Of a stretch of DNA of 64,000 bases, positions 35,463-51,139 are shown piece after piece. Every line of letters begins with the position of its first letter. Position 1 is the stretch's first letter. This DNA is from Arthrobacter sp. S41. GTDB taxonomy: Bacteria; Actinomycetota; Actinomycetes; Actinomycetales; Micrococcaceae. The translations under genes and the position numbers were made by a program. Where the stretch lies: contig NZ_SIHY01000001.1 of assembly GCF_004320535.1 (NCBI RefSeq), positions 1,736,001-1,800,000 on the forward strand, given 5' to 3'. The notes below the pieces were generated by a model that did not search any database, was not told the DNA's origin, and worked only from the letters and a program-made list of their open reading frames with translations.

Positions 35463-36158
35463 ATGCAGAGCATGAAACCCAATCTGGCCTCTTCGTTGGT
35501 GGAGCACCTACGTGAACGAATCAGCTCTGGAGACATAGTCGCTGGCGAAAAGCTTCCGAGTGAAAACACGTTGATCGCTTCCCATGGTGTTTCTCGTACC
35601 GTGGTGCGCGAAGCCATTACGCGCCTGCAGGCTGAAGGTCTGATCTACACTCGGCGCGGAGCCGGTAGCTTTGCACTGACTCCCCCACCTGCTGCCATGG
35701 CTGAAACTCAGCCACTGATCCCACGCACCTTGGATGAACGCCGAGAACTGATCGAATTCCGCATGGGATTTGAAACCGAAGCCGCGGCCAGTGCAGCGCT
35801 TAGCGCTTCTGAGTCAGACCTCTCGGCAATGGAATCGGCGCTTCAGGGTTTTGAAGCTTCCTTGGGCAACGCCTCGGTGAGCATGGGCTGCGATTATGAA
35901 TTCCATCTTGCCGTGGCTAGGGCCACCGGCAATCCGTACTTTGCTCAAGCCGTTCAAACATTTGGCCCCGGCATGATTGCCATGCCTCGTCGCCGACTAG
36001 ATGCCACAGATTCTATCGACAGCCACAGGTTAGATTCTGTCGCAGCCGAGCACCGCGCTATCCATGAAGCCATCGCCTCGGGCAACCCTCAGTTGGCTTC
36101 TGCGGCCATGAGATTGCACCTAGCAAATTCAGTGAAGCGACTACAGGCTGAGGCCTAA
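35463..36158 (+). CDS. GntR-family regulator, FadR subfamily
   Basis: A 231-residue regulator. The N-terminal wHTH (VEHLRERISSGDIVAGEKLPSENTLIASHGVSRTVVREAITRLQAEGLI) is followed by the all-helical FCD domain (about residues 85-225) with metal/ligand His positions in DYEFHLAVARATGN and AEHRAIHEAI. It follows the sugar-acid dehydratase gene on the same strand, so it likely responds to a hexarate or its product and binds the palindrome at 34202. ATG 35463 fits a leaderless start (TATGCT at 35451-35456). ATG 35472 with AAGG is an alternative. Confidence 0.87.
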   Translation: MQSMKPNLASSLVEHLRERISSGDIVAGEKLPSENTLIASHGVSRTVVREAITRLQAEGLIYTRRGAGSFALTPPPAAMAETQPLIPRTLDERRELIEFRMGFETEAAASAALSASESDLSAMESALQGFEASLGNASVSMGCDYEFHLAVARATGNPYFAQAVQTFGPGMIAMPRRRLDATDSIDSHRLDSVAAEHRAIHEAIASGNPQLASAAMRLHLANSVKRLQAEA

Positions 36159-36208
36159 GCCGAGCTGAGCAAAGCACGTTGCTTTCAGCGGCAGCCCCAG
36201 TTATAGAC

Positions 36209-36258
36209 AAACCCTTCGTGGCCTGTGCGGAGTTCTCCGCACAGGCCACAAAGGGTTT
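36209..36258. terminator. Strong intrinsic terminator between gntR and gntP
   Basis: A 14-bp stem plus an 8-bp outer stem separated by one mismatch (36209-36231 with 36236-36258), 4-nt loop. On the plus strand it is followed by TTTTTT, so it ends the gntR transcript. It can also serve gntP (minus). Confidence 0.87.
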
Positions 36259-36267
36259 CTGCATTTT

Positions 36268-37626
36268 TTAGGCAATGAACTGGCTGAGTAACAGAACCCC
36301 ACCCAGGCCCAAGACCGCCAACGTGGTGGTGTAGGTAGTGCGCACCGCGATGGCTTGGCCCACGTTGAGGTTGAAATATTCTTTGAACATCCAGAACCCC
36401 GGGTCATTTACGTGACTGAATGCAATGGAACCACAAGCCGTAGCCAGGACCATCAGCTCCGGCGAGGCCCCGGTGGCCACAACCAGTGGAGCGGCGATGC
36501 CGGCCGCGGTCGAGACAGCAACAGTTGCCGAGCCCAGTGCAATACGCAGAATCACGGCAATGAGCCACGCAAGGACCAACGGGCTAAGATCCCACCCAGA
36601 CGTCGTTTCCGCAATGTAGTCGGCAATTCCCGCCGAGACCAGAACCTCCTTGAATGCACCACCGGCACCAATAACCAAGAGGATCATGGCCATCGCACGG
36701 GCTGCCTCGCTCATGGATTTAGCAACTTGGCTCATGCTGCGATTACTCATCGGCCCAAAAGCGAAAATTGCGACGATCAATGCGATCAGCAAGGCCATCT
36801 CAGCTGAACCAAGAAGCTCCAAAACATTGCTGAGGCTTTCACTCATCTCCAGCGTCATACGCGCTACTTCCGATCCGGCAATCAGCACGATGGGAAGCAG
36901 AGCAACGATAAAGGACATCGCAGTGGACGGAAGTTCTTCATCCTTGAATTCTTTTTCCGCCAACAGACCAGCGGGCATTTGCGGATTCATCTTCTTCACG
37001 AAAGCCAGACGTGGCCAGGTCATCGCGATGGCAACACCGACCGGGATAGCGATCATCAGCCCGTACGCAAGAGTCAGACCTACTGAAGCGTTATATAGCC
37101 CCGCAACGGCCGTTGGACCCGGGTGCGGTGGCAAGAACGAATGCATTGTCGACAGCGAGATCGACATAGGCAATCCCACCCACAACAGATTGACCTTGGT
37201 GGCGCGAACAAGGGTAAATGCCACCGGTACCAAAATCACGAACGCGACTTCGTAGAACATGGTGACACCGATCAGCATCGCCGAAATGACCATGGCCCAC
37301 TGGACACCACGTTCTCCAAAAACAGAGAGAATCTTTTTCGCAATGCGTTGCGCTGCGCCTGCGTCACCCATGACACGGCCAATCATCGCGCCAAGGCCAA
37401 TGACGATAGCCGTTCCGCCAAGCTGCCCGCCCAAACCGTCCGCGATGATATCGGGGATATCTGCGATCCCGGCCGCCTCGCCGTCGATGGTGAGCGAGTC
37501 AGTAGCCACCGCCCAGAATGCGACAAGTGTGGCGACAAGAATGAGGGAAATGAATCCGTTGAGCTTGAACCTCATCATAAGGATCAACAGAACAACGACA
37601 GCCAGCGCGACGATGAGCAATGGCAT
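36268..37626 (-). CDS. gntP: Gluconate:H+ symporter (GntP family)
   Basis: A 452-residue permease with about 12-14 helices of the GntP family. The recognisable segment GLPMSISLSTMHSFLPPHPGPTAVAGLYNAS contains the conserved HPGP loop. It imports gluconate, idonate or a related sugar acid. GGAG lies 5 nt before ATG 37626. It is convergent with the gntR gene and stands in the sugar-acid island. The idnO/idnD pair lies 19 kb away. Confidence 0.9.
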   Translation of the reverse strand: MPLLIVALAVVVLLILMMRFKLNGFISLILVATLVAFWAVATDSLTIDGEAAGIADIPDIIADGLGGQLGGTAIVIGLGAMIGRVMGDAGAAQRIAKKILSVFGERGVQWAMVISAMLIGVTMFYEVAFVILVPVAFTLVRATKVNLLWVGLPMSISLSTMHSFLPPHPGPTAVAGLYNASVGLTLAYGLMIAIPVGVAIAMTWPRLAFVKKMNPQMPAGLLAEKEFKDEELPSTAMSFIVALLPIVLIAGSEVARMTLEMSESLSNVLELLGSAEMALLIALIVAIFAFGPMSNRSMSQVAKSMSEAARAMAMILLVIGAGGAFKEVLVSAGIADYIAETTSGWDLSPLVLAWLIAVILRIALGSATVAVSTAAGIAAPLVVATGASPELMVLATACGSIAFSHVNDPGFWMFKEYFNLNVGQAIAVRTTYTTTLAVLGLGGVLLLSQFIA

Positions 37627-40620: not shown

Positions 40621-41622
40621 CTACTTGCCAGCGAGGGAAATCTCGTGCTCATCGGTTAGTTTCTTATAGGTCTCTGCCAACTCCGTCCATTCCGAGACAA
40701 CCTCTTCGCCGCTGATCTCGTGGGTGCTGAGCAGGTTCTTTTTGTTGAAGGACTTGTAGCTATCAGCTGCGGTGGCGTCCTTGATGGAAGCTACCAACTT
40801 CTCCTTTGCTTCATCACTCAAGCCCTTAGGAGCCGCTATGGCACGGTACTGCGAGACTGGAACTTCATAGCCGGATTCGACAGCAGTCGGAACATCGGGC
40901 AGAAACTCATTGCGTTCCTTGGAGAAGACCGTAATTGGCACCACGGTGCCAGCATCAATCTGTGGCTTAGCTTCGCCCAGCTGAATGGTTGATACCTGGA
41001 CTTGGTCACCCATGACTGCGGTCAATGCCGGTGATCCTGAGTCGAACGGTACGGTGGTGCCTTCGATATCAGCTTGAGCGAGCAACAGCTCCTGGGCCAG
41101 CTGCGATCCGGTTCCCACCCCGGTCGTGCCGAAGGACAGTTTCTTCTCGCTCTTCTTGATGTCGTCAATGTTCTTCAGGCCCGAGGCCTTGCTTGCAACC
41201 ATGACGTAGTCGTCCTGCGAAAGTCCCATCAGAACATCGAGGTCATCAAGGGAAACAGTTTCGTTTTCAGAAACAGCCAGCGGCGTGATGGTGATCAGTG
41301 AAGCGTTGAGCAAGACCAGGTTCTGGCCATCTGCCTTCATAGCAGCTACCTCTTTAGTAGCCAATGCGCCGTTGGCCCCTGGCTTGTTGACCACTGGCAT
41401 TGATACACCGAGGGAATCGGCCATTCCTTCAGCGGCAGCGCGGGCAATCAAATCCGTAGACCCGCCTGGAGCCTGTCCTACGGTGAGGGTGACCGGGCCA
41501 GATGGGAATTGCGCCGAGTCGGCGCTCCCTCCCCCAACGTTTCCACCGCAAGCGCTGAGCGCCAGCACAACACCGGCGGACGAAAGGGCAAGTAGCGTGC
41601 GACGAGCCATACGGTTTTTCAT
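40621..41622 (-). CDS. tctC: Tripartite tricarboxylate transporter binding lipoprotein TctC
   Basis: A 333-residue TctC/BugD-type solute-binding protein. The signal sequence ends with a lipobox (LALSAC, Cys at about 25). The core starts with PVTLTVGQAPGGSTDLIARAAAEGMADSLG, where the PGGSTDLIAR segment is the typical carboxylate-binding loop. AGGAG lies 6 nt before ATG 41622. It is first in the tctCBA-usp operon and divergent from a LysR gene. Confidence 0.92.
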   Translation of the reverse strand: MKNRMARRTLLALSSAGVVLALSACGGNVGGGSADSAQFPSGPVTLTVGQAPGGSTDLIARAAAEGMADSLGVSMPVVNKPGANGALATKEVAAMKADGQNLVLLNASLITITPLAVSENETVSLDDLDVLMGLSQDDYVMVASKASGLKNIDDIKKSEKKLSFGTTGVGTGSQLAQELLLAQADIEGTTVPFDSGSPALTAVMGDQVQVSTIQLGEAKPQIDAGTVVPITVFSKERNEFLPDVPTAVESGYEVPVSQYRAIAAPKGLSDEAKEKLVASIKDATAADSYKSFNKKNLLSTHEISGEEVVSEWTELAETYKKLTDEHEISLAGK

Positions 41623-41703: not shown

Positions 41704-41736
41704 AGCGTAGAAACTTGAAGTGATGCATGTCCAAGG
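41704..41736 (-). promoter_or_regulatory. tctC promoter with the shared LysR-linked element
   Basis: On the minus strand CCTTGGACATGCATCA (41736-41721) contains -35-like TTGGAC, and TACGCT (41709-41704) follows after 19 bp. Thirteen of 16 element positions are identical to those upstream of kdgD and of the second glucarate dehydratase gene. Confidence 0.65.
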
Positions 41737-41772
41737 TTGAATGTGCATGGAGTGATTCCCGAAAGGTATTGA

Positions 41773-42672
41773 ATGTTTACTCTGGATCAGGCCAGAAGCT
41801 TTGTTGCGGTGGCAGAAGAACTACATTTCGGCCGCGCTGCCGAGAGGCTGAACATGACTCAGCCCCCGTTGAGCCGCCAAATCCAGAAGCTGGAACGCAC
41901 CGTTGGCGTCGAGTTATTGGAAAGAGATAACCGCAGGGTCGCCCTCACCGCGGCGGGCCAGGCATTTTTGCAAGACGCCCGAAGACTGGTCATCGCAGCC
42001 GAACGTGCTCCGGATAATGCGCGAAGGATCGCAGCTGGCCAACTCGGCGAACTGCGCATTGGCTTTACCGCCGCTTCTGGCTTCAGCCTGCTCGGGCCAA
42101 TGCTTGGGGAAATTTCGGCACAGATGCCGCAGGTTCATGTGGACCTATCTGAAATGGTGACCAGCGAACAAGTAGTCGCATTACTTGATGGCGACCTAGA
42201 CCTTGGACTAGCCCGCCCACCCTTTGACGAAACCTTATTTGAGTCTGCCCTGCTGTTCTCGGAAGGTTTGGTAGTGGCAGTGCCATCGGATCATCCATTG
42301 GCTCAACTGAATCGAAGTCTCACCTTTGAAGATCTACGCGATGAACCGCTGATCATGCATTCGCCTACCAAGGCCCGCTACTTTTATGACCTCGTTGTGC
42401 GCATGATTGATATCGAGCATAAAAACGTGCGGCATACCGTGAGCCAGATTTTGACCATGATCGCTTTGGTCGCAGCCGGACGTGGAATCGCTTTTGTTCC
42501 AGAGAGCGCCAAACTTCTCGGCGTTTCCGGCGTGAGTTATCTGCGCCTACCCGAGGTCCGCGAGGACCCGGTGCAGCTGCACGCCATCTGGAGTAGGACT
42601 TCCAAAAACCCCGCGCTGGAACGACTGGTCTCCATAGTCCGCGGAAGCTTGCACGACAATGATGCCGAGTAG
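41773..42672 (+). CDS. LysR-family regulator, divergent from tctCBA
   Basis: A 299-residue LysR regulator. The N-terminal wHTH is FTLDQARSFVAVAEELHFGRAAERLNMTQPPLSRQIQKLERTVG and the effector domain (about residues 90-290) follows. GAAAGG precedes ATG 41773. Its HTH differs from that of the LysR at 48762-49715 at only a few positions, so both may bind the same operator. It sits between tctC and kdgD, and an aldarate or pathway intermediate is its likely inducer. Confidence 0.92.
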   Translation: MFTLDQARSFVAVAEELHFGRAAERLNMTQPPLSRQIQKLERTVGVELLERDNRRVALTAAGQAFLQDARRLVIAAERAPDNARRIAAGQLGELRIGFTAASGFSLLGPMLGEISAQMPQVHVDLSEMVTSEQVVALLDGDLDLGLARPPFDETLFESALLFSEGLVVAVPSDHPLAQLNRSLTFEDLRDEPLIMHSPTKARYFYDLVVRMIDIEHKNVRHTVSQILTMIALVAAGRGIAFVPESAKLLGVSGVSYLRLPEVREDPVQLHAIWSRTSKNPALERLVSIVRGSLHDNDAE

Positions 42673-42694
42673 GTATCAAACAATACAAATATGG

Positions 42695-42727
42695 GCTTGG
42701 ACAGGCATCACTGAGTGTTCCTAGGCT
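42695..42727 (+). promoter_or_regulatory. Promoter of the kdgD operon with the shared LysR-linked element
   Basis: GCTTGGACAGGCATCA (42695-42710) holds TTGGAC, and TAGGCT (42722-42727) lies 19 bp after it. The arrangement equals that at 49751 and, on the other strand, at 41736. Confidence 0.65.
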
Positions 42728-42801
42728 GAGGGTAATAGCTGATCAACTCTCACTTTTTCCTGCAGCTACCTGATGCGGGAATGGAATCAAAGGAAACCCC
42801 C

Positions 42802-43740
42802 ATGGCTCAGTACACACCTTCCGAACTTGCAAACAAGCTCAAAGACGGACTGCTCTCATTCCCAGTCACCGCCTTTGATGAGAACCTCGAAATCGATGAG
42901 GCCAACTACCGCAAGCACCTAGCGTGGCAGTCCAGCTTCGATGTGGCGGGCTTGTTCGCAGCCGGTGGCACCGGTGAAGGCTTCACCTTGACCCCGGAAG
43001 AATCAGCCAAGGTTGTTCGCATGGCCGTTGAAGAAGCCGGTTCCAGTGTTCCAGTTCTAGCCTCGGCAGGTGGATCAACCAAGCAGGCCATCCAGAACGC
43101 CCAGGACGCCGAGGCTGCTGGCGCCGAAGGACTGCTGCTCCTGCCTCCTTACCTGACCGAATGTGACCAGGAAGGCCTGTACCAGCACGTCTCCAAAATT
43201 TGCTCCTCGACCAAAACTGGCGTGATTGTTTACAACCGTGCCAACGCTGTCTACTCCGCAGACACCGTGGCGCGACTGGCAGATAACCACGAAAACTTCA
43301 TTGGCTTCAAGGACGCATTGGGCGACATTGAGCAGATCACCAAGGTCTACGCGAAGAACGGTGACCGCCTGTTCTACCTCGGTGGCCTGCCTACCGCAGA
43401 GACTTTCGCACTACCACTGTTGCAGCTGGGAATGAGCACCTACTCCTCAGCCATGTACAACTTCGTTCCTGAATTTGCACTGGACTTCTACAAGGACGTT
43501 CGCGCGCAGGACCGTGTGGCAATCAACGAAAAGCTGAACCGCTTTGTTATGCCGTACTTGGACATCCGCGACCGCGTCAAGGGCTACGGAGTGTCCATCG
43601 TCAAGGGTGGCCTGAAAGCCATTGGTCGCGATTCCGGCTCGGTGCGCCCACCACTGCAGGACCTGACTGAAGCTGATCTTGCGGATCTTTCGGCACTGAT
43701 CCAGAAGGCCGGCATCGTTCCTGCCGGCGCCGCACTGTAA
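42802..43740 (+). CDS. kdgD: 5-dehydro-4-deoxyglucarate dehydratase
   Basis: A 312-residue DHDPS/NAL-superfamily enzyme that dehydrates and decarboxylates 5-keto-4-deoxyglucarate to 2-ketoglutarate semialdehyde. The catalytic Schiff-base Lys is in FIGFKDALGD and the Tyr in GVIVYNRANAVYS. The N-terminal GGTGEGFTLTPEE is the typical substrate loop. ATG 42802 is chosen over 42781 because AGGA lies 7 nt before it. It is first in an operon with the semialdehyde dehydrogenase and glucarate dehydratase genes. Confidence 0.93.
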   Translation: MAQYTPSELANKLKDGLLSFPVTAFDENLEIDEANYRKHLAWQSSFDVAGLFAAGGTGEGFTLTPEESAKVVRMAVEEAGSSVPVLASAGGSTKQAIQNAQDAEAAGAEGLLLLPPYLTECDQEGLYQHVSKICSSTKTGVIVYNRANAVYSADTVARLADNHENFIGFKDALGDIEQITKVYAKNGDRLFYLGGLPTAETFALPLLQLGMSTYSSAMYNFVPEFALDFYKDVRAQDRVAINEKLNRFVMPYLDIRDRVKGYGVSIVKGGLKAIGRDSGSVRPPLQDLTEADLADLSALIQKAGIVPAGAAL

Positions 43741-43779
43741 AAAACTGAACTGGCAATTTTTCGAATCGCAAGGAGCACC

Positions 43780-45381
43780 ATGACTACCAACATCGAGCAA
43801 CTCACCGGGCAGTCGATTCTCGCAGGTCAAAGTACTACCGGCACCGGACGGACCGTTAACGGTTTTAACCCTGCCACCAACCAGCCGCTAGAACCGGGCT
43901 ACAGCCTGATCGATACCGAGCAACTGAAGCTTGCCACCTCCGCGGCGGCCGAAGCCTTTGATTCCTTCCGTGCTCTGGATCCAGAAAAGCATGCAGCTTT
44001 CCTCGAAGCCATCGCCGATAACATCGAAGCTGTCGGTCAAGAGCTCGTGGAACGCGCCATGGCCGAAACCGGCCTGCCCGCAGCGCGCCTGAACGGCGAG
44101 CGCGGCCGTACCACCGGCCAGCTGCGTCTGTTCGCAAAGGTCGTTCGCCAGGGTGATTTCCGTGGTGTGCGCATCGATCCAGCATTGCCAGAGCGAACCC
44201 CATTGCCTCGCGTAGATATTCGACAGCGCAAGATCCCGCTGGGTCCAGTGGCCGTCTTTGGTGCCTCGAACTTCCCGCTGGCCTTCTCCACCGCCGGTGG
44301 CGACACCGCTTCTGCTTTGGCTGCCGGTTGCCCGGTAGTTTTCAAAGCGCACAATGCTCATCCGGGCACCAGTGAAATTGTTGGCCGCGCCATCACCCAG
44401 GCGGTCACCGACGCTGACCTGCACCCCGGTGTCTTCTCCTTGATCTATGGTCCCGGAGCCTCCATCGGTCAGGCGCTGGTAGCTGATCCAGTGATCAAGG
44501 CTGTTGGCTTTACCGGATCACGTTCCGGCGGTACCGCGTTGATGGCCACCGCAGCAGCACGACCTGAACCAATTCCGGTGTACGCAGAAATGAGCGCCAT
44601 CAACCCTGTCATCTTCTTCGAAGGTGTCTTGGCTGAAGATCCAGAAGGCCATGCCAAGGCGTACCTAGGATCCGTCACCGGGTCCTCGGGTCAGCTCTGC
44701 ACCGCTCCAGGTTTGGTCTTTGCTCCACAGGGTGCGGCAGGCGACGCCTTTGTAAAGGCTATTGCTCCAGCTACTACGTCTAGCACCGGCCAGACCATGC
44801 TGACCGAGGGGATCTACAACGCGTGGACCGAGGGTGTTTCTGCCCTTGAAAAGCAGGACGGCGTAGAACTGCTCGGACGTGGTGCCGAAGGTGACAGCGA
44901 AAATGCACCTGGACCGGTCATCTTCGCTGCTGGTGTAGAACAGCTTTTGACCAATCCTGTCCTTCAGGAAGAAATTTTCGGAGCAGCTTCGCTGGTCATC
45001 CGCTACAACAGCGCTGAAGAATTGGTTAGCACGCTCTCTCAGCTCGAAGGCCAGCTCACCGCGACCTTGCAGCTCAACGAGTCGGATTATCCGGTTGCTG
45101 CCCAAGCTCTTCCCGTCTTGGAAACCAAGGCTGGACGTATCTTGATCAACGGCTGGCCTACCGGTGTTGAAGTTGGCGATGCGATGGTCCACGGCGGTCC
45201 GTTCCCGGCTACCTCTGCCCCACAGACCACTTCTGTTGGCACGTTAGCAATCGAACGCTTCTTGCGTCCTGTGGCTTACCAGAACTTCCCTGATTCGCTC
45301 TTGCCCCAGCCTTTGGCAGATGAGAATCCATGGAATCTGAATCGTCGCATCGATGGCACGCTGAAGTTAGCAGGAGAATAA
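43780..45381 (+). CDS. 2-ketoglutarate semialdehyde (2,5-dioxovalerate) dehydrogenase
   Basis: A 533-residue aldehyde dehydrogenase of the NADP-dependent KGSADH-III type. NAD(P)-fold segment VFGASNFPLAFSTAGGDTASALAAGCPV, GFTGSRSGG, catalytic Glu in YAEMSAINPV and catalytic Cys in GSSGQLCTAPGLVF. It oxidises 2-ketoglutarate semialdehyde to 2-ketoglutarate. AAGGAG lies before ATG 43780. The position between kdgD and gudD completes the glucarate pathway. Confidence 0.92.
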   Translation: MTTNIEQLTGQSILAGQSTTGTGRTVNGFNPATNQPLEPGYSLIDTEQLKLATSAAAEAFDSFRALDPEKHAAFLEAIADNIEAVGQELVERAMAETGLPAARLNGERGRTTGQLRLFAKVVRQGDFRGVRIDPALPERTPLPRVDIRQRKIPLGPVAVFGASNFPLAFSTAGGDTASALAAGCPVVFKAHNAHPGTSEIVGRAITQAVTDADLHPGVFSLIYGPGASIGQALVADPVIKAVGFTGSRSGGTALMATAAARPEPIPVYAEMSAINPVIFFEGVLAEDPEGHAKAYLGSVTGSSGQLCTAPGLVFAPQGAAGDAFVKAIAPATTSSTGQTMLTEGIYNAWTEGVSALEKQDGVELLGRGAEGDSENAPGPVIFAAGVEQLLTNPVLQEEIFGAASLVIRYNSAEELVSTLSQLEGQLTATLQLNESDYPVAAQALPVLETKAGRILINGWPTGVEVGDAMVHGGPFPATSAPQTTSVGTLAIERFLRPVAYQNFPDSLLPQPLADENPWNLNRRIDGTLKLAGE

Positions 45382-45384
45382 TCT

Positions 45385-46713
45385 ATGAGTGCACAACCAA
45401 CTATTGCTTCGGTAGAGGTCATTCCGGTCGCCGGCCACGATTCGATGTTGCTGAATCTTTCCGGTGCCCACGGCCCCTTCTTCACCCGAAATATTGCCAT
45501 CATCACCGACTCTGATGGACGCACCGGTTTAGGTGAAGTACCTGGAGGCGAAGCAATTCGCTCAACTATTGAAGAAGCTGGAAAGCTCATCCATGGGGCA
45601 CCAGTAGCCAAATACCGTTCCTTGCTGCGACAGATTTCCAGCCGTTTCGCAGACCGCGACAAGGGTGGACGTGGAGCGCAAACTTTTGATCTGCGCACCA
45701 CGGTCCACGCAGTTACCGCCGTTGAGTCTGCGCTGTTGGATCTGCACGGACAACACCTTGGTGTGCCGGTAGCAGAGCTACTGGGTGACGGTCAGCAGCG
45801 TGAAGCAGTACCAATGCTGGGCTACCTCTTCTACGTGGGCAATCCCGACGCCACCGATCTTCCATATCTTCGCGAACCTCATGGCGCGGATGACTGGGAG
45901 AAAGTTCGCCGCGAAGAGGCTATGACACCAGAAGCTGTGGTCCGCTTGGCTGAAGCCGCTCAGAAACGTTACGGGTTCAAAGACTTCAAGCTCAAGGGCG
46001 GTGTCCAGGCAGGCGACGCTGAAGTGGATGCGGTGATTGCGCTCAAGGAACGATTCCCTGATGCGCGTATTACCTTGGATCCTAATGGCGGATGGTTGTT
46101 GGAAGACGCTATCCGTTTGGGCAAGCGTATGCGCGGAGTTGTAGCTTACGCTGAGGATCCTTGTGGACCTGAGGGCAGGTTCTCGGGACGCGAAGTGATG
46201 AGCGAGTTCCGTCGTGCCACCGGCTTGCAGACCGCTACCAACATGATTGCCACCGACTGGCGCGAAATGTCCCACGCAGTGCGAACCAACGCGGTGGATA
46301 TTCCACTAGCGGATCCGCACTTCTGGACCATGTCCGGTTCCGTTCGGGTTGCCCAATTGTGTGACGAGTTTGGGCTTACGTGGGGTTCTCACTCAAATAA
46401 CCACTTTGATATTTCCTTGGCCATGTTCACCCAAGCCGGGGCTGCAGCGCCAGGAGAAATCACGGCGTTGGATACCCACTGGATCTGGCAGGACGGTCAA
46501 GAGCTGACCGAAGAACCACTGCAGATTCGCGACGGAGAAATCCAAGTTCCGCAAAAGTCCGGTCTTGGGGTCACCCTGAACCGAGCGCGTGTCAACGAGG
46601 CTCACGAGCTGTATTTGCAGCACGGACTCGGATCACGCGATGACGCGGTATCAATGCAATATCTGATTCCAGGCTGGAGCTTTGATTCCAAGAGCCCAGC
46701 GTTGGTTCGCTAA
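45385..46713 (+). CDS. gudD: Glucarate dehydratase
   Basis: A 442-residue enolase-superfamily enzyme of the GudD type. Lys in [11 protein letters not shown], metal ligands in [15 protein letters not shown] and TNMIATDW, and the base His in [13 protein letters not shown]. The N-terminal capping part has [20 protein letters not shown], typical of GudD. It converts D-glucarate to 5-keto-4-deoxyglucarate, the substrate of KdgD. Its ATG follows the dehydrogenase stop by 3 bp, with AGGAG in the end of that gene. Confidence 0.94.
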
Positions 46714-46841
46714 GTATTGACTCTGAATAAGTGATGACCATGGGGGGCGGTTGGAACAACATTTGATGTTGTCCCGGCTGTCCCCACTGTGGTGTTGGTA
46801 GGCCTCAACGCAGTCATAGAGAAGTGTAAGCAGGAGAAGAT

Positions 46842-47783
46842 ATGCACGGCGTGATGCAAGGGTTCGCGATAGTCCTAATCCTTATCGGGGTAGGTCTGGC
46901 GACAGCAAAATTTCTCCCGAGTAAGCGGCAAGCCATTTCCACCGGGCTGACCCCGCTGATCTACTACATCACCAACCCTGCCTTGATGTTCATCTTGCTC
47001 GCAGACGCCGACCTTGGATTAGTTCTGGGTGTGTTCACACCTATAGCGCTGTTGACTGCCGTGCTCACCGGCGCGCTCTTCGCGGTGGTCTCCAGAATTT
47101 TCCTCAAGACTCCGGCCCGCCATCTCCCGGCGGCCGCCATGGCAACCAGTTACGTCAATGCCGGGAACATCGGCATTCCCCTGGCGCTGTATGCGGTGGG
47201 TAGTACTACCCCTGCAGTTTCCGTCTTGATAGCTCAGTTGTTGATCATCGCGCCAGCCTACCTATGTATGTTTGCGGTGATCTCGCGCAAACTGAACCCA
47301 GATACGCAGAACCTTCCGCTGGGCCGAACCGTCTTGAAATCCATCGCTAACCCGGTGACTGTCGCAACCGCCATTGGTGCCTGCTTTTCTTTCATCCATC
47401 TCAGACTTCCCGAAGTGTTGCACGCACCTTTGGAGATGCTCGGTAATGCCTCCATTCCGTTGTTGCTGATGGCCTTTGGCATGTCCTTGTATGGGCAAAA
47501 GCCATTGGCTGAAAAGGAAGGACGGCCTGAAGTCTTTTTGGGTAGCGCGTTCAAAGTGTTGCTCATGCCGTGCATTGCTTGGGCTTTGGGTCGGTTTGTT
47601 TTTGGTCTTGAGTCAACGGATCTCATGGGTGTAGTTGTCATGGCCGCTTTGCCCACCGCGCAGAACGTTCTGTTGTTCAGTCAGCAGTTCTCACTGAAAC
47701 CTACGGTTCCTCGTGAAGTGATTCTGGCCAGTACATTTTTATCCATCCCGGTAGCATTGCTAGCAACGTTCCTTTTGAGCTAG
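46842..47783 (+). CDS. AEC-family transporter (first copy)
   Basis: A 313-residue membrane protein of the auxin-efflux-carrier family with about 10 helices. The central NPALMFILLA, TSYVNAGNIGIPLALYAVG and MAALPTAQNVLLFSQQF segments are diagnostic. AGGAG lies before ATG 46842. AEC carriers move organic acids such as malate. Here they may export an overflow acid or import a pathway acid. A small hairpin (ACAACAT/ATGTTGT, 46756-46772) lies in the 128-bp gap before it. Confidence 0.87.
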   Translation: MHGVMQGFAIVLILIGVGLATAKFLPSKRQAISTGLTPLIYYITNPALMFILLADADLGLVLGVFTPIALLTAVLTGALFAVVSRIFLKTPARHLPAAAMATSYVNAGNIGIPLALYAVGSTTPAVSVLIAQLLIIAPAYLCMFAVISRKLNPDTQNLPLGRTVLKSIANPVTVATAIGACFSFIHLRLPEVLHAPLEMLGNASIPLLLMAFGMSLYGQKPLAEKEGRPEVFLGSAFKVLLMPCIAWALGRFVFGLESTDLMGVVVMAALPTAQNVLLFSQQFSLKPTVPREVILASTFLSIPVALLATFLLS

Positions 47784-47800
47784 GAGTTCAAGCCCGTCTC

Positions 47801-48730
47801 ATGTTTGGTGTCTTCGAGGGATTTTTCGGTATCTGGGCCATTATTGGCATTGGCTATTGGGCTGGAAAGAAGAATGTCTTCGGCCCTGAAGGGCGAATGA
47901 TCCTCAATCGTCTCACCTTCTTCATTGCCTCGCCCGCTTTGCTTTTCACCACAATTGCCGGCGCCAATCCTCAAGAAGCCCTCGGCTCTCAGCTGTTTAT
48001 CGCCGGAATTTCGGCCAGCGTTGTGTTTGTACTTTTCCATTTTCTCTCGCGGTGGCTCTTTAAACGCTCTGCTGCAGAACGAACAATCGGCTCCATGGCC
48101 GCTTCCACGGTGAATGCCGGGAACCTAGGCCTGCCCATCGCGCTCTATGCGTTGGGGGATATCTCTATCGCTGCACCCGTGGCCCTGTTTCAGATGGCCA
48201 TCATGACTCCGGTGTCACTGTCGATGATGGAAAAGGCTACAAGCAACCGGGAAGCCGGTGCGCGAAGCCTCCTGATTCGCACGCTATCAAACCCGATGAT
48301 TATTGCTTCGGCAGCCGGGTTGGCTTGTTCCATCTTCCATTGGATGCCACCACAGTTGTTGCTGACACCCATAGAACTGCTTGCCGGAGCTTCGATTCCG
48401 GCCATGCTTCTTGGCTTCGGCATTTCTCTAGTGGGCTCTAAACCATTGCAAAAGGCAACACAACGCCGAACCGAAGTATGGGTGGCAACAGCACTCAAGC
48501 TGGTTGTTCACCCACTCCTAGCTTGGGTTCTGGCAGCCTGGGTGTTCAGGCTCGACGCCACCGGTCAATACATCGCGATTATCATGGCGGCACTGCCTAC
48601 CGCGCAGAATATTTTTGTCAACGCTGATCGCTACAACGCCGGAATTACCATTGCCAAGGACACCGTTCTGGTCACCACGATTCTAGGTATTCCGGTCATG
48701 TTGGCCTTTGCTGGTTTGTTGCACCACTAA
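47801..48730 (+). CDS. AEC-family transporter (second copy)
   Basis: A 309-residue AEC-family protein, about 10 helices, with ASPALLFTTIAGAN, STVNAGNLGLPIALYALG and MAALPTAQNIFVNADRY matching the first copy's motifs but with clear divergence elsewhere. It starts 17 bp after the first copy ends. The tandem arrangement indicates an old duplication or a heteromeric pair. The Shine-Dalgarno sequence (GGAG) is 14 nt from ATG 47801, so coupling to the upstream gene or a slightly later start is possible. Confidence 0.86.
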   Translation: MFGVFEGFFGIWAIIGIGYWAGKKNVFGPEGRMILNRLTFFIASPALLFTTIAGANPQEALGSQLFIAGISASVVFVLFHFLSRWLFKRSAAERTIGSMAASTVNAGNLGLPIALYALGDISIAAPVALFQMAIMTPVSLSMMEKATSNREAGARSLLIRTLSNPMIIASAAGLACSIFHWMPPQLLLTPIELLAGASIPAMLLGFGISLVGSKPLQKATQRRTEVWVATALKLVVHPLLAWVLAAWVFRLDATGQYIAIIMAALPTAQNIFVNADRYNAGITIAKDTVLVTTILGIPVMLAFAGLLHH

Positions 48731-48761
48731 TTCACCAATGACCCGGCAACACAGCTTTGGC

Positions 48762-49715
48762 CTACTCAGGCCGATCGGTTGAAGCAGTCTTGTCGGGAAT
48801 CGCTGTTCCTTCAACATTTTCCAGAGAGTCAATAAAGACTTCTCGTAGTCGTTGCGCAGCCGGATTCACCGAACCTTCTTCCCAAGCAATAAAGATGTCA
48901 GAATGGTTCAAATTTTGTAGTCCGTCAGGGCTAGTTAGTTCTTCAAAAACCACTCCAGGTGGCGCAAAGTCCATGGCGCTGGCCGGCACCAACGACACCC
49001 CGAGCCCCACGGCAACCAAAGCCATGAGCGCAGGAATCTGGCTGGCAATTTGGGTAATGGTTGGTTTGCTTCCCACGGAATCGAAGAGCCGAATCACCAG
49101 ATCGTAAAAGTACCTAGCTTCATTGGTTGAATACATCATCAGTGGGAGCCCCACCAATTCTTTGATCAAGACACCCTTGCCGGTGGCCAAATAGTGTCCT
49201 GCTGGAAGAGTCACCACCAGTCGGTCCTTTTTCACCAGACATGATTGCACTCCGCCCCGATTGACGACTGGGCGCAATAGACCAACATCAATATTTCCGC
49301 TGCTCAACGCGTCGAGTTGGTCAATGGAGACGGCTTCTCGCAGAACCAGCGTGACATCCGGCAGATGACGGGCAGCGGTAGACAGTAAGGCCGGCAGAAC
49401 AGATTGGCCAGCCACTGAGGTGTAACCAACGATCACCGTTCCAGAGTCCCCGGTAGACACACGGGAGACTTCCATGCTGGTGCGTCGGCTCAACTCCAAA
49501 AGTCTGCGGGCATTGGGGAGCAGCACCTCGCCAGCAGCGGTTAGTTGCACATTGCGCGAGGTGCGGGTGAAGAGCTTGGCGGATAATTCACGTTCCAGCA
49601 ATTGGATCTGTCGGCTCAGCGGCGGCTGAGTCATGTTGAGTCGTTCAGCGGCAGCACCGAAGTGGAGTTCTTCAGCAACGGCGACGAAGGACTCCAGTTG
49701 AATGAGCGAAAACAT
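48762..49715 (-). CDS. LysR-family regulator, divergent from the second glucarate dehydratase
   Basis: A 317-residue LysR regulator. Its wHTH FSLIQLESFVAVAEELHFGAAAERLNMTQPPLSRQIQLLERELS is almost identical to that of the LysR at 41773, while the effector domain is more different. ATG 49715 has AAGGAG 7 nt upstream. It is divergent from gudD2 and next to a copy of the shared promoter element, so both regulators may cover one regulon with different inducers. Confidence 0.92.
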   Translation of the reverse strand: MFSLIQLESFVAVAEELHFGAAAERLNMTQPPLSRQIQLLERELSAKLFTRTSRNVQLTAAGEVLLPNARRLLELSRRTSMEVSRVSTGDSGTVIVGYTSVAGQSVLPALLSTAARHLPDVTLVLREAVSIDQLDALSSGNIDVGLLRPVVNRGGVQSCLVKKDRLVVTLPAGHYLATGKGVLIKELVGLPLMMYSTNEARYFYDLVIRLFDSVGSKPTITQIASQIPALMALVAVGLGVSLVPASAMDFAPPGVVFEELTSPDGLQNLNHSDIFIAWEEGSVNPAAQRLREVFIDSLENVEGTAIPDKTASTDRPE

Positions 49716-49750
49716 CAATGCTCTCCTTGAATCGTTGATTGCATAAATTA

Positions 49751-49783
49751 GCTTGGACAGGTATCAATAACGGCTTCTATGGT
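49751..49783 (+). promoter_or_regulatory. Promoter of the second glucarate dehydratase gene with the shared LysR-linked element
   Basis: GCTTGGACAGGTATCA (49751-49766) differs from the kdgD copy at one of 16 positions. TATGGT (49778-49783) follows TTGGAC after 19 bp. Confidence 0.65.
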
Positions 49784-49816: not shown

Positions 49817-51139
49817 ATGCTGGATGCAACGACGCAGCAAGTCTCTAGCCAATCGCCGCAGAGCGAACCAACATCATGCCGAGTGGAAAGAATTGAAGTC
49901 ACTCCCGTCGCTTTCGCGGATCCGCCCTTGCTTAATTCCGTGGGAGTACACGAACCATTTGCGTTGCGAGCAATCGTGGTGGTGCATACAAATACAGGAC
50001 ACTACGGGCTAGGTGAAACCTACGGCGACGAGGCCCACGTCGCGCGGCTACGTCGAGCAGCTTCTGCTCTGCAAGGTGCCGACCCGTTTAATCTGAATCT
50101 CATCTCACGACTCGTCTCTGAGTCTCTAGTGCAGGACAACGGACAAGGCGGACACGGCACCGGAGGCATGGTCACAACGACCTCGTTAGATGACCGAGTA
50201 CTGTCCGCATTCAACGTTGCGTGCCTCGATATCCAAGGCAAGGTCCTGGGAGTACCGGTCAGCACGTTGCTCGGCGGCGCAATACGCGAATACGTTGATT
50301 TCAGTGGCTATCTCTTTTACAAGTGGGCAAATCATCCCGGACGTGAAAGCGACAAGTGGGGCGAGGCCATAGACCCTGCAGGGATCGTGGCCCAAGCCCG
50401 CAAGATGGTCACTGACTACGGATTCAAGGCATTGAAACTCAAGGGTGGGGTCTTCCCGCCGGACCAAGAAGCTGCCGCCATCGAGGCGTTACACCAAGAG
50501 TTTCCCGACATCCCACTGCGTTTAGACCCCAATGGTGTGTGGAGCGTGCCAACGGCAATAGAAGTCGGGCACCGTTTGGAAGCATCCCTGCAGTACTTGG
50601 AAGATCCTTGCCTGAGGATTGCCGATAATGCTGCCGTGCGCGCAGCCATCAACCTGCCAATCGCCACCAACATGTGCGTGGTCTCTTTTGCTGATCTTCA
50701 GCCAGCCATCAAAGCGCAAGCTGTAGACATCGTCCTGTCCGATCATCACTTCTGGGGCGGCTTGAGCCGGTCCAAACTACTTTCCGGCATCGCAGAGACC
50801 TTTGGTCTGAGCCTTTCGATGCACTCGAATTCTCATTTAGGGATCAGCTTCGCGGCCATGATTCAGTTAGCGGCGGCCACCGAGAATATTGACTACGCCT
50901 GCGATACCCACTGGCCTTGGAAACTCGAGGAAGACGATGTCATCGTGGCCGGAACACTGACGATTCAAGACGGTAAGGTCCAAGTTCCAACCGGTCCTGG
51001 ACTGGGCGTGGAACTCGATACGCAAGCCCTTGAGCGGATGCATCAGCAATACCTTGACTGTGGGCTGAAGCAACGTGACGATACCAGCTACATGCAGTCC
51101 ATCGATCCCACCTATGAGCTGAAGAGTCCACGATGGTAA
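49817..51139 (+). CDS. Glucarate dehydratase-like enolase-superfamily enzyme (second paralogue)
   Basis: A 440-residue GudD-family protein. Lys in KALKLKGGVFPP, metal ligands LRLDPNGVW, LEDPCL and IATNMCV, and His in SMHSNSHLGIS are all present, so it should be active. It is a divergent paralogue of the gudD at 45385. It could act on glucarate, idarate or another hexarate. ATG 49817 has AAGGGAG 6 nt upstream, and the earlier frame from 49739 overlaps the promoter. It overlaps the following dehydrogenase gene by 7 bp. Confidence 0.88.
   Translation: MLDATTQQVSSQSPQSEPTSCRVERIEVTPVAFADPPLLNSVGVHEPFALRAIVVVHTNTGHYGLGETYGDEAHVARLRRAASALQGADPFNLNLISRLVSESLVQDNGQGGHGTGGMVTTTSLDDRVLSAFNVACLDIQGKVLGVPVSTLLGGAIREYVDFSGYLFYKWANHPGRESDKWGEAIDPAGIVAQARKMVTDYGFKALKLKGGVFPPDQEAAAIEALHQEFPDIPLRLDPNGVWSVPTAIEVGHRLEASLQYLEDPCLRIADNAAVRAAINLPIATNMCVVSFADLQPAIKAQAVDIVLSDHHFWGGLSRSKLLSGIAETFGLSLSMHSNSHLGISFAAMIQLAAATENIDYACDTHWPWKLEEDDVIVAGTLTIQDGKVQVPTGPGLGVELDTQALERMHQQYLDCGLKQRDDTSYMQSIDPTYELKSPRW

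Follow-up and report, generated by a model that had tools for sequence, protein, structure and literature searches.

BenM and CatM of Acinetobacter are two paralogous LysR proteins with overlapping recognition that serve one pathway; their operators at benA and catB have the box consensus ATAC-N7-GTAT and a three-site layout with site 2 at the −35 region, which reads TTGAAC at benA (PMC6628147). The proteins bind sites 1 and 3 without effector and sites 1 and 2 once effectors are present (PMC6628147). On activation, according to the sliding-dimer model, the second dimer changes its position and the −35 box becomes free (PMC4730206). Two LysR paralogues, PnpR and PnpM of Pseudomonas sp. WBC-3, act at a shared promoter whose box is near −65 and whose activation site is near −35 (PMC5603801). 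By the statements of two of these papers, no conserved motif had been identified in LysR activation sites as of 2017 (PMC5603801), nor in one of the two activation subsites as of 2016 (PMC4730206). Here we describe three promoters, those of tctC, kdgD and gudD2, located next to two LysR-type regulator genes (lysR1 and lysR2) in a sugar-diacid gene cluster of Arthrobacter sp. S41. The cluster lies in a stretch of 64,000 nucleotides (contig NZ_SIHY01000001.1, positions 1,736,001 to 1,800,000; ‘the window’, whose own numbering is used below). Judged from the sequences, the three promoters share a real and deeply conserved LysR operator-promoter. The system is of a known kind; what is unusual is the clarity of a conserved half-site downstream of the −35 element (H4) and a nearly fixed position relative to the regulator start codon.

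Architecture of the operator-promoter

The whole control region takes up ∼70 bp. With column 0 assigned to the first T of TTGGAC, the unit consists of half-site H1 yRATRC (−37), a spacer N7, half-site H2 GNATCA (−24), half-site H3 ATRCA (−14), the −35 element TTGGAC (0), half-site H4 GYATCA (+8 to +13) and the −10 element TANNNT (+25). The LysR box, yRATRC-N7-GNATCA, spans columns −37 to −19, upstream of TTGGAC. The regulators, the first genes of the three operons and the operator parts are located as follows (ORF, open reading frame).

41773..42672, plus strand: lysR1, LysR-type regulator of 299 aa, divergent from tctC (ORF; NCBIfam and PDB matches to LysR-type regulators)
48762..49715, minus strand: lysR2, LysR-type regulator of 317 aa counted from ATG, divergent from gudD2 (ORF; family matches; 41% identity to LysR1)
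40621..41622, minus strand: tctC (named so in the original prediction), solute-binding protein of a tripartite tricarboxylate-type transporter (ORF)
41753..41771, minus strand: tctC LysR box CAATAC-N7-GAATCA (H1 41771-41766, H2 41758-41753), ending 1 bp before the lysR1 start codon
41744..41748, minus strand: tctC half-site H3 ATGCA (from the alignment of sites)
41729..41734, minus strand: tctC −35 element TTGGAC
41721..41726, minus strand: tctC half-site H4 GCATCA, just downstream of the −35 element
41704..41709, minus strand: tctC −10 element TACGCT
42805..43740, plus strand: kdgD, 5-dehydro-4-deoxyglucarate dehydratase (TIGR03249, 383.1 bits, above the cutoff of 373.95)
42660..42678, plus strand: kdgD LysR box TGATGC-N7-GTATCA (H1 42660-42665, H2 42673-42678), including the lysR1 stop codon
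42683..42687, plus strand: kdgD half-site H3 ATACA
42697..42702, plus strand: kdgD −35 element TTGGAC
42705..42710, plus strand: kdgD half-site H4 GCATCA
42722..42727, plus strand: kdgD −10 element TAGGCT
49817..51139, plus strand: gudD2, glucarate-dehydratase-like enzyme (best NCBIfam match TIGR03247, 269.5 bits, below the cutoff of 828.7)
49716..49734, plus strand: gudD2 LysR box CAATGC-N7-GAATCG (H1 49716-49721, H2 49729-49734), abutting the lysR2 start codon
49739..49743, plus strand: gudD2 sequence at the H3 place, the variant TTGCA of the lysR2 group
49753..49758, plus strand: gudD2 −35 element TTGGAC
49761..49766, plus strand: gudD2 half-site H4 GTATCA
49778..49783, plus strand: gudD2 −10 element TATGGT

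The T-N11-A dyad box expected near −65 is present at all three promoters as ATRC-N7-GNAT (−65 being counted from the −10 element). Counted in the same way, the predicted centre of the box falls near −65 and that of a second dimer near −44 (at H3) or near −33 (at H4), about one helical turn apart. H4 is a further copy of the H2 sequence GNATCA, in unchanged orientation and displaced downstream by 32 bp, or about three turns. Conserved half-sites flank the −35 element on both sides, at the candidate second contact of a LysR-type regulator, and the layout of the three promoters is compatible with a tetramer shift of the BenM/CatM type.

At tctC and gudD2 the regulator is divergent from the operon that it would control, and the box abuts the start codon of lysR1 or lysR2, respectively. 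Both regulator genes have a Shine-Dalgarno-like sequence within the box spacer or at its edge; the likely Shine-Dalgarno sequence of lysR2, AAGGAG, is found in the spacer of the gudD2 box. The kdgD operator shares sequence with the 3′ end and stop codon of lysR1 (42660-42678); operators thus bracket this gene at its start and stop.

The original prediction had placed a 16-bp element upstream of tctC, kdgD and gudD2 and had counted 13 of the 16 positions as invariant. All three copies are present, with the expected positions and strands, and the count is confirmed. A search of the 3.47 Mb genome with the composite pattern, allowing up to three mismatches, gave exactly three matches, the tctC, kdgD and gudD2 promoters (reversed control, 0). 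In a set of 47 unique sites chosen by the 14-bp core of the element (nine loci, L018, L028, L032, L072 and L004-L008, were left out), A-35, T-34, C-32, G-24 and A-22 occur in 47/47 and T-21 in 46/47; ATRCA is common at −14 to −10, and the T, A and T of +25 to +30 are each kept in 41/47. We rejected the 16-mer as the entire operator because such columns, which took no part in the selection, are invariant upstream of it; by alignment it is the downstream end of a larger operator-promoter, comprising the −35 element and one half-site.

The prediction that TTGGAC is followed after 19 bp by TANGNT stood for the three window sites (TACGCT, TAGGCT and TATGGT), but not for relatives, in which neither the spacing nor the third-base G is constant. 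The 19-bp spacing was observed in 37/39 tctC-type, 43/56 kdgD-type and 26/29 gudD2-type sites, with 18 bp in 17 of the other 18 sites and 17 bp in one; the −10 pattern kept across relatives is TANNNT. A scan for the sigma-70 consensus listed gudD2 alone of the three promoters, with a total of five matches against a shuffle mean of 6.8, and so speaks neither for nor against these promoters.

Comparison with known systems

The window operators share with those of BenM/CatM the T-N11-A box (H1-N7-H2) and a TTGGAC counterpart of the benA TTGAAC, and BenM and CatM have detectable sequence similarity to LysR1 and LysR2. Scores against the NCBIfam BenM and CatM models are far below the cutoffs of 600 and 580 bits (LysR1, 141.1 and 136.4; LysR2, 116.7 and 128.8). 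Unlike the Acinetobacter system, that of the window has its distal foothold, H4, about one turn from H3 and just downstream of the −35 element, while site 3 of benA lies further downstream. Further differences are the sharply conserved second half-site, linked genes for sugar diacids instead of aromatics, and a box that abuts the regulator start codon at tctC and gudD2. PnpR/PnpM differ in their box, GTT-N11-AAC, and in their pathway (PMC5603801).

A predicted galactarate/glucarate regulon of Halomonas includes a predicted tripartite TctABC transporter, but its regulator GguR belongs to the GntR family (PMC5507952). The linked regulators of the window are LysR-type: both match models of that family over most of their length (an N-terminal winged helix-turn-helix and a periplasmic-binding-protein-like effector domain) and do not fit the GntR-family type of GguR, and both match full-length LysR-type structures by sequence. 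The best NCBIfam match of both is the acetoin regulator AlsR (NF045775), a regulator of a different pathway, with 237.7 (LysR1) and 219.7 bits (LysR2) against a cutoff of 430. Among the titles and abstract starts listed in searches of open-licence PubMed Central articles we found no description of a LysR-type glucarate regulon of Arthrobacter or similar bacteria.

Occurrence in the genome and in the family

The exact 14-bp core, TTGGACANGYATCA, has three matches in the whole genome (3,472,078 bases), all in the cluster, and the reversed pattern has none. With one mismatch there are eight matches against five for the reversed control; the five extra sites, located elsewhere, look like chance since their number is near that of the control. 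These copies (L004-L008) were set aside, having neither a cluster-gene homologue nearby nor a composite match. In the window, a loose search with up to two mismatches is uninformative (six matches, 2.98 expected), and the three exact matches are the signal.

Within the genus, exact matches occur in 11 of 18 genomes. The lysR1 gene is present in 12 of the 18; ten of these have exact sites at the cluster, and in the remaining two the site on the tctC side deviates by a single base (L043 and L044). The six genomes without lysR1 contain one exact match (G017, L018), which lacks upstream half-sites and overlaps the start of an ORF that is transposase-like by eye. Two genus genomes have a further exact match outside the cluster: L028 (G002), inside a long ORF, and L032 (G014).

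In 197 genomes of the family we found 59 exact matches in 36 genomes, against seven for the reversed control. The motif tracks lysR1: it is present in 32/51 genomes with the gene and 4/146 without it (Fisher p ∼2.5e-19, relatedness ignored). Matches in the four genomes without lysR1 (G049, G067, G090 and G107) are near the control rate of seven matches per 197 genomes; the one from G049 (L072), like L032, has no upstream half-sites and no cluster-gene homologue. In relatives the motif is thus found well above the level of reversed-pattern controls. With the composite confined to three promoters of the genome and the motif following lysR1, the sequences give good support to the proposal of a single LysR regulon that covers import and degradation.

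Conservation tested without the motif

A set was made of 144 annotated loci fetched by protein similarity alone, which gave 123 unique lysR-upstream regions. Within these, selection by ATDC-N7-GNAT near the lysR start only left 92 regions. TTRGAC was observed at exactly +35 from the box in 76 of the 92; T[TA][AG]GAC, sought at offsets 20-59, occurred at +35 (76) or +59 (1). With the first box only, GNAT at +43, the place of H4, was present in 83/92 regions (next best offset, 17; median over offsets, 0). GNAT at +43 together with TANNNT at +59 to +61 occurred in 73 of the 76 regions with TTRGAC. Inclusion of loci fetched by the motif gives 78/95 and 86/95, so the main counts barely change with protein-fetched loci alone. 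H3 (AT[AG]C) at +21 is seen in 42/58 LysR1-like regions. In 68/76 regions, 1-3 bases lie between the lysR start codon (placed by alignment with the window proteins) and the first A of ATRC. Identical sequences were counted once throughout; related species are not independent. The second half-site, present at one exact offset in 83/92 regions chosen without it, stands in contrast to the 2016 and 2017 statements cited above.

The full signature has 62 matches in 80 named relatives (the best 80 of a longer list), with none for the reversed pattern and none in ten block shuffles. Homologues of cluster genes start within 400 bp downstream of 44 matches: kdgD (26), tctC (10), gudD2 (3), aldehyde dehydrogenase (2), lysR1 (2) and gudD1 (1). 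For 14 of the 18 matches without such a homologue the first downstream ORF was sought, and ten of these ORFs were run on Pfam. Five are D-2-hydroxyacid dehydrogenases (L095, L098, L125, L127 and L128); the others, one each, are of 6-phosphogluconate/3-hydroxyisobutyrate-dehydrogenase type, a TctC-type receptor, an extracellular solute-binding protein, an epimerase-type protein and a malate:quinone oxidoreductase. The last one belongs to Geodermatophilus (L079:18665), where the full signature lies just upstream of the gene. In L097, L105, L126 and L131, the first residues of the ORF after the signature look to the eye like those of D-2-hydroxyacid dehydrogenases. The window, too, has a hydroxyacid dehydrogenase gene, located after gudD2. 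Upstream of the LysR gene of the same 80 loci, the −35/H4/−10 core was found in 31 and the full signature in 28 (records of Pseudomonas and Burkholderia included), against two with the core on the opposite strand of these regions.

Two regulators and two operator types

The DNA-binding domains of LysR1 and LysR2, taken as near-identical in the original prediction, differ in the helix-turn-helix (residues 16-38) at R21A only. The next residue, 39, also differs (K in LysR1 and L in LysR2), and it aligns with BenM residue 38, a DNA-contact position in BenM/CatM (PMC6628147). Over 303 aligned positions the two proteins are 41% identical. A tree of 92 rows, rooted at the midpoint and with one very long branch (L138), places the LysR2 group (19 rows, support 100/100) and the group that includes LysR1 (39 rows, 98/96) in separate clades. 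A recent local duplication is rejected by this tree; by it, LysR1 and LysR2 are deep paralogues.

Presence of the genes was called at E 1e-75 (lysR1) and E 1e-70 (lysR2), with the best 11 or 12 first-look candidates scored per genome. Among the 197 family genomes lysR1 is found in 51 and lysR2 in 25, all of them within the 51; 26 of the 51 have LysR1 without LysR2. The exact motif is present in 11/26 genomes with lysR1 alone and in 21/25 with both. We also sought LysR1 in seven lysR2-bearing genomes. Four have a separate LysR1 (E 1e-111 or better); in the other three, two of Cryobacterium and one of Pseudoclavibacter, the best matches are the lysR2 genes themselves (E 2.0e-59, 3.8e-60 and 1.5e-57), and these Microbacteriaceae appear to have LysR2 alone. 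One lysR2 homologue (L164, G089) has an in-frame TGA; it is possibly a decayed copy or a sequencing error.

We compared operators beside lysR1 (39), upstream of kdgD (56) and beside lysR2 (29) over columns −20 to +16. The position weight matrix that chose these sites was trained mainly on the LysR1 type and required a T[TA][GA]GAC core, which biases the −35 counts upward; motif-fetched loci, which favour the motif, are included in this comparison, in the residue 39 analysis and in the 95-region counts. Leave-one-out assignment was right for 39/39 LysR1-adjacent and 29/29 LysR2-adjacent sites, and 54 of the 56 kdgD sites scored as LysR1-type; for protein-fetched loci alone the figures are 38/38, 29/29 and 49/50. 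Column −14 is A in 39/39 and 56/56 sites and in 0/29 of the lysR2 group. Column −4 is T in 29/29 of the lysR2 group, which may instead be a trace of the lysR2 promoter on the other strand. The lysR2-type core TTAGCTTGGACNNGNATCRAT, sought in six genomes with up to two mismatches, matched once in each of five, always at lysR2, and not in Pseudoclavibacter (reversed control, one match in total).

The bases flanking the half-sites differ as well. LysR1-type sites have pyrimidine..purine in 30/39 and 37/56 cases (reverse form, 4/39 and 2/56), and LysR2-type sites purine..pyrimidine in 23/29 (reverse form, 0/29). At divergent sites the lysR Shine-Dalgarno sequence overlaps these flank columns; the kdgD sites are free of such overlap. 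Most LysR1-like proteins have K at residue 39, and LysR2-like proteins have L or M. CatM has K at residue 38, and pyrimidine..purine is the form described as favouring its binding (PMC6628147). Residue 39 was rejected as the sole determinant of operator type, as some L39 proteins of Actinomadura and Streptomyces have the C..G form.

Because the operator types separate and the kdgD sites side with LysR1, LysR1 is the most likely regulator of the tctC and kdgD operons, and LysR2 that of gudD2; cross-talk is possible, as the core half-sites are shared. In the original prediction, both proteins were suggested to act at one operator. In its fullest form this would mean that each of the three operators is bound by both proteins, which respond to different acids and combine these signals at a common site, as BenM and CatM overlap in Acinetobacter. 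The near-identical helix-turn-helix, the same core half-sites, −35 element and spacing at three promoters, the confinement of lysR2 to family genomes that also have lysR1, and the precedents of paralogous LysR proteins at shared promoters, BenM/CatM (PMC6628147) and PnpR/PnpM (PMC5603801), are consistent with this arrangement. The full separation of operator types in leave-one-out, the LysR1-type kdgD sites, the difference at residue 39 that goes together with the flanking bases (with the exceptions given above), and the occurrence of each regulator without the other, in separate deep clades, make it unlikely, although it is the strongest of the alternatives. The proposal of two regulators at one operator is thus supported in part only.

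In one relative (L052/L168, G112), a LysR1-type tctC operator is located downstream of lysR2 rather than lysR1; lysR1 and kdgD are ∼11 kb off on the same contig.

Proposed mechanism and alternatives

We propose, with a probability of roughly 0.8, that each site is a complete LysR-type operator-promoter with a two-foothold switch, LysR1 acting at tctC and kdgD and LysR2 at gudD2. For binding, direction of the shift, inducers and autoregulation we infer the following. One dimer of a regulator tetramer would occupy the yRATRC-N7-GNATCA box, whose centre lies ∼65 bp upstream of where transcription is expected to start. For the second dimer there would be a choice between two footholds separated by roughly one turn of the helix: H3, on the upstream side of the −35 element, and H4, immediately after it. 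Without inducer, the tetramer would sit on the box and H4, the repressing foothold, and cover the −35 element. The inducer, for which glucarate, galactarate and a dehydration product are the probable candidates, would move the second dimer to H3, the activating foothold, so that RNA polymerase could reach the weak TTGGAC/TANNNT promoter. Since the box abuts the regulator's own start codon at tctC and gudD2, binding there should also limit expression of lysR1 and lysR2.

Several observations weigh against this proposal. H3 is weak in the lysR2 group, with AT[AG]C in 3/34 LysR2-like regions and TGCA in 12/34. No box of this kind was present near the start codon in 31 of the 123 lysR-upstream regions, and 52 of the 80 named relatives have no full signature upstream of the LysR gene. 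The exact 14-mer is absent from 19 of the 51 lysR1-bearing family genomes, with relaxed forms in those loci examined. Neither alternative dimer position has a good second half-site, so the two-foothold model is built on single half-sites, and a reading of the operator as a set of half-sites next to a common type of promoter needs no sliding.

The last point leads to a conventional LysR operator that has a single box near −65 and in which GYATCA at +8 is part of the promoter (a spacer or an extended contact) and no second dimer slides between H3 and H4. The lack of a good partner half-site for H4 at N7 spacing and the poor retention of H3 in the lysR2 group are what such an operator would give. 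It would leave the repetition of H2 by H4 in the same orientation 32 bp downstream, and GNAT in 83/92 regions chosen without it, as constraints not expected of a spacer; we regard it as rather improbable. That the repeat is a core promoter motif only, for example of an alternative sigma factor, with the LysR genes as bystanders, is very improbable: TTGGAC-N19-TANNNT is a plausible −35/−10 pair within the best conserved block, but an upstream LysR box is conserved at fixed spacing, the composite occurs at these three promoters only in the genome, and the exact motif goes with lysR1 in the 197 family genomes and lies close to the lysR start codon in distant relatives.

The two-foothold proposal could hold for a wider group, though we offer this extension tentatively and would not call it probable. 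The LysR regulators of this clade may use a sequence-specified two-state switch, a box plus two half-sites one turn apart around the −35 element, with a conserved activation-site motif; the operator would have been kept with its position relative to the regulator start codon from Actinomycetota to Pseudomonas and Burkholderia, its type drifting with residue 39. The well conserved second half-site makes the long-standing sliding-dimer model testable. The present data map, base by base, the operators of a compact sugar-diacid regulon that is seen repeatedly within a bacterial family and also in more remote relatives, and they assign separate likely targets to two paralogous regulators.

Gene content of the cluster

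The tctC gene heads a run of four close minus-strand genes that extends to 38051. Its protein has a sub-cutoff TRAP/TAXI match alone in NCBIfam (18.5 vs 84.35 bits); the gene at the corresponding place in a relative (L093) has a Pfam TctC match. By ORF spacing, kdgD is the first gene of a run to 48730 and is followed by genes for an aldehyde dehydrogenase, gudD1 and two auxin-efflux-carrier (AEC)-type permeases. The gudD1 product is just under the glucarate dehydratase cutoff (786.7 vs 828.7 bits). The gudD2 gene is the first of three ORFs extending to 52591, the others being the hydroxyacid dehydrogenase gene and a small gene. The GudD2 score is far under the glucarate dehydratase cutoff; therefore, its substrate may be another acid sugar instead of glucarate.

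The tandem pair of permease genes after gudD1 (46842-48730) presents a second possible transport route in the cluster. On the far side of the tctC operon, at 35463-37626, there are genes of a GntR-type regulator and a GntP-like permease (named by eye), perhaps a separate gluconate-type unit.

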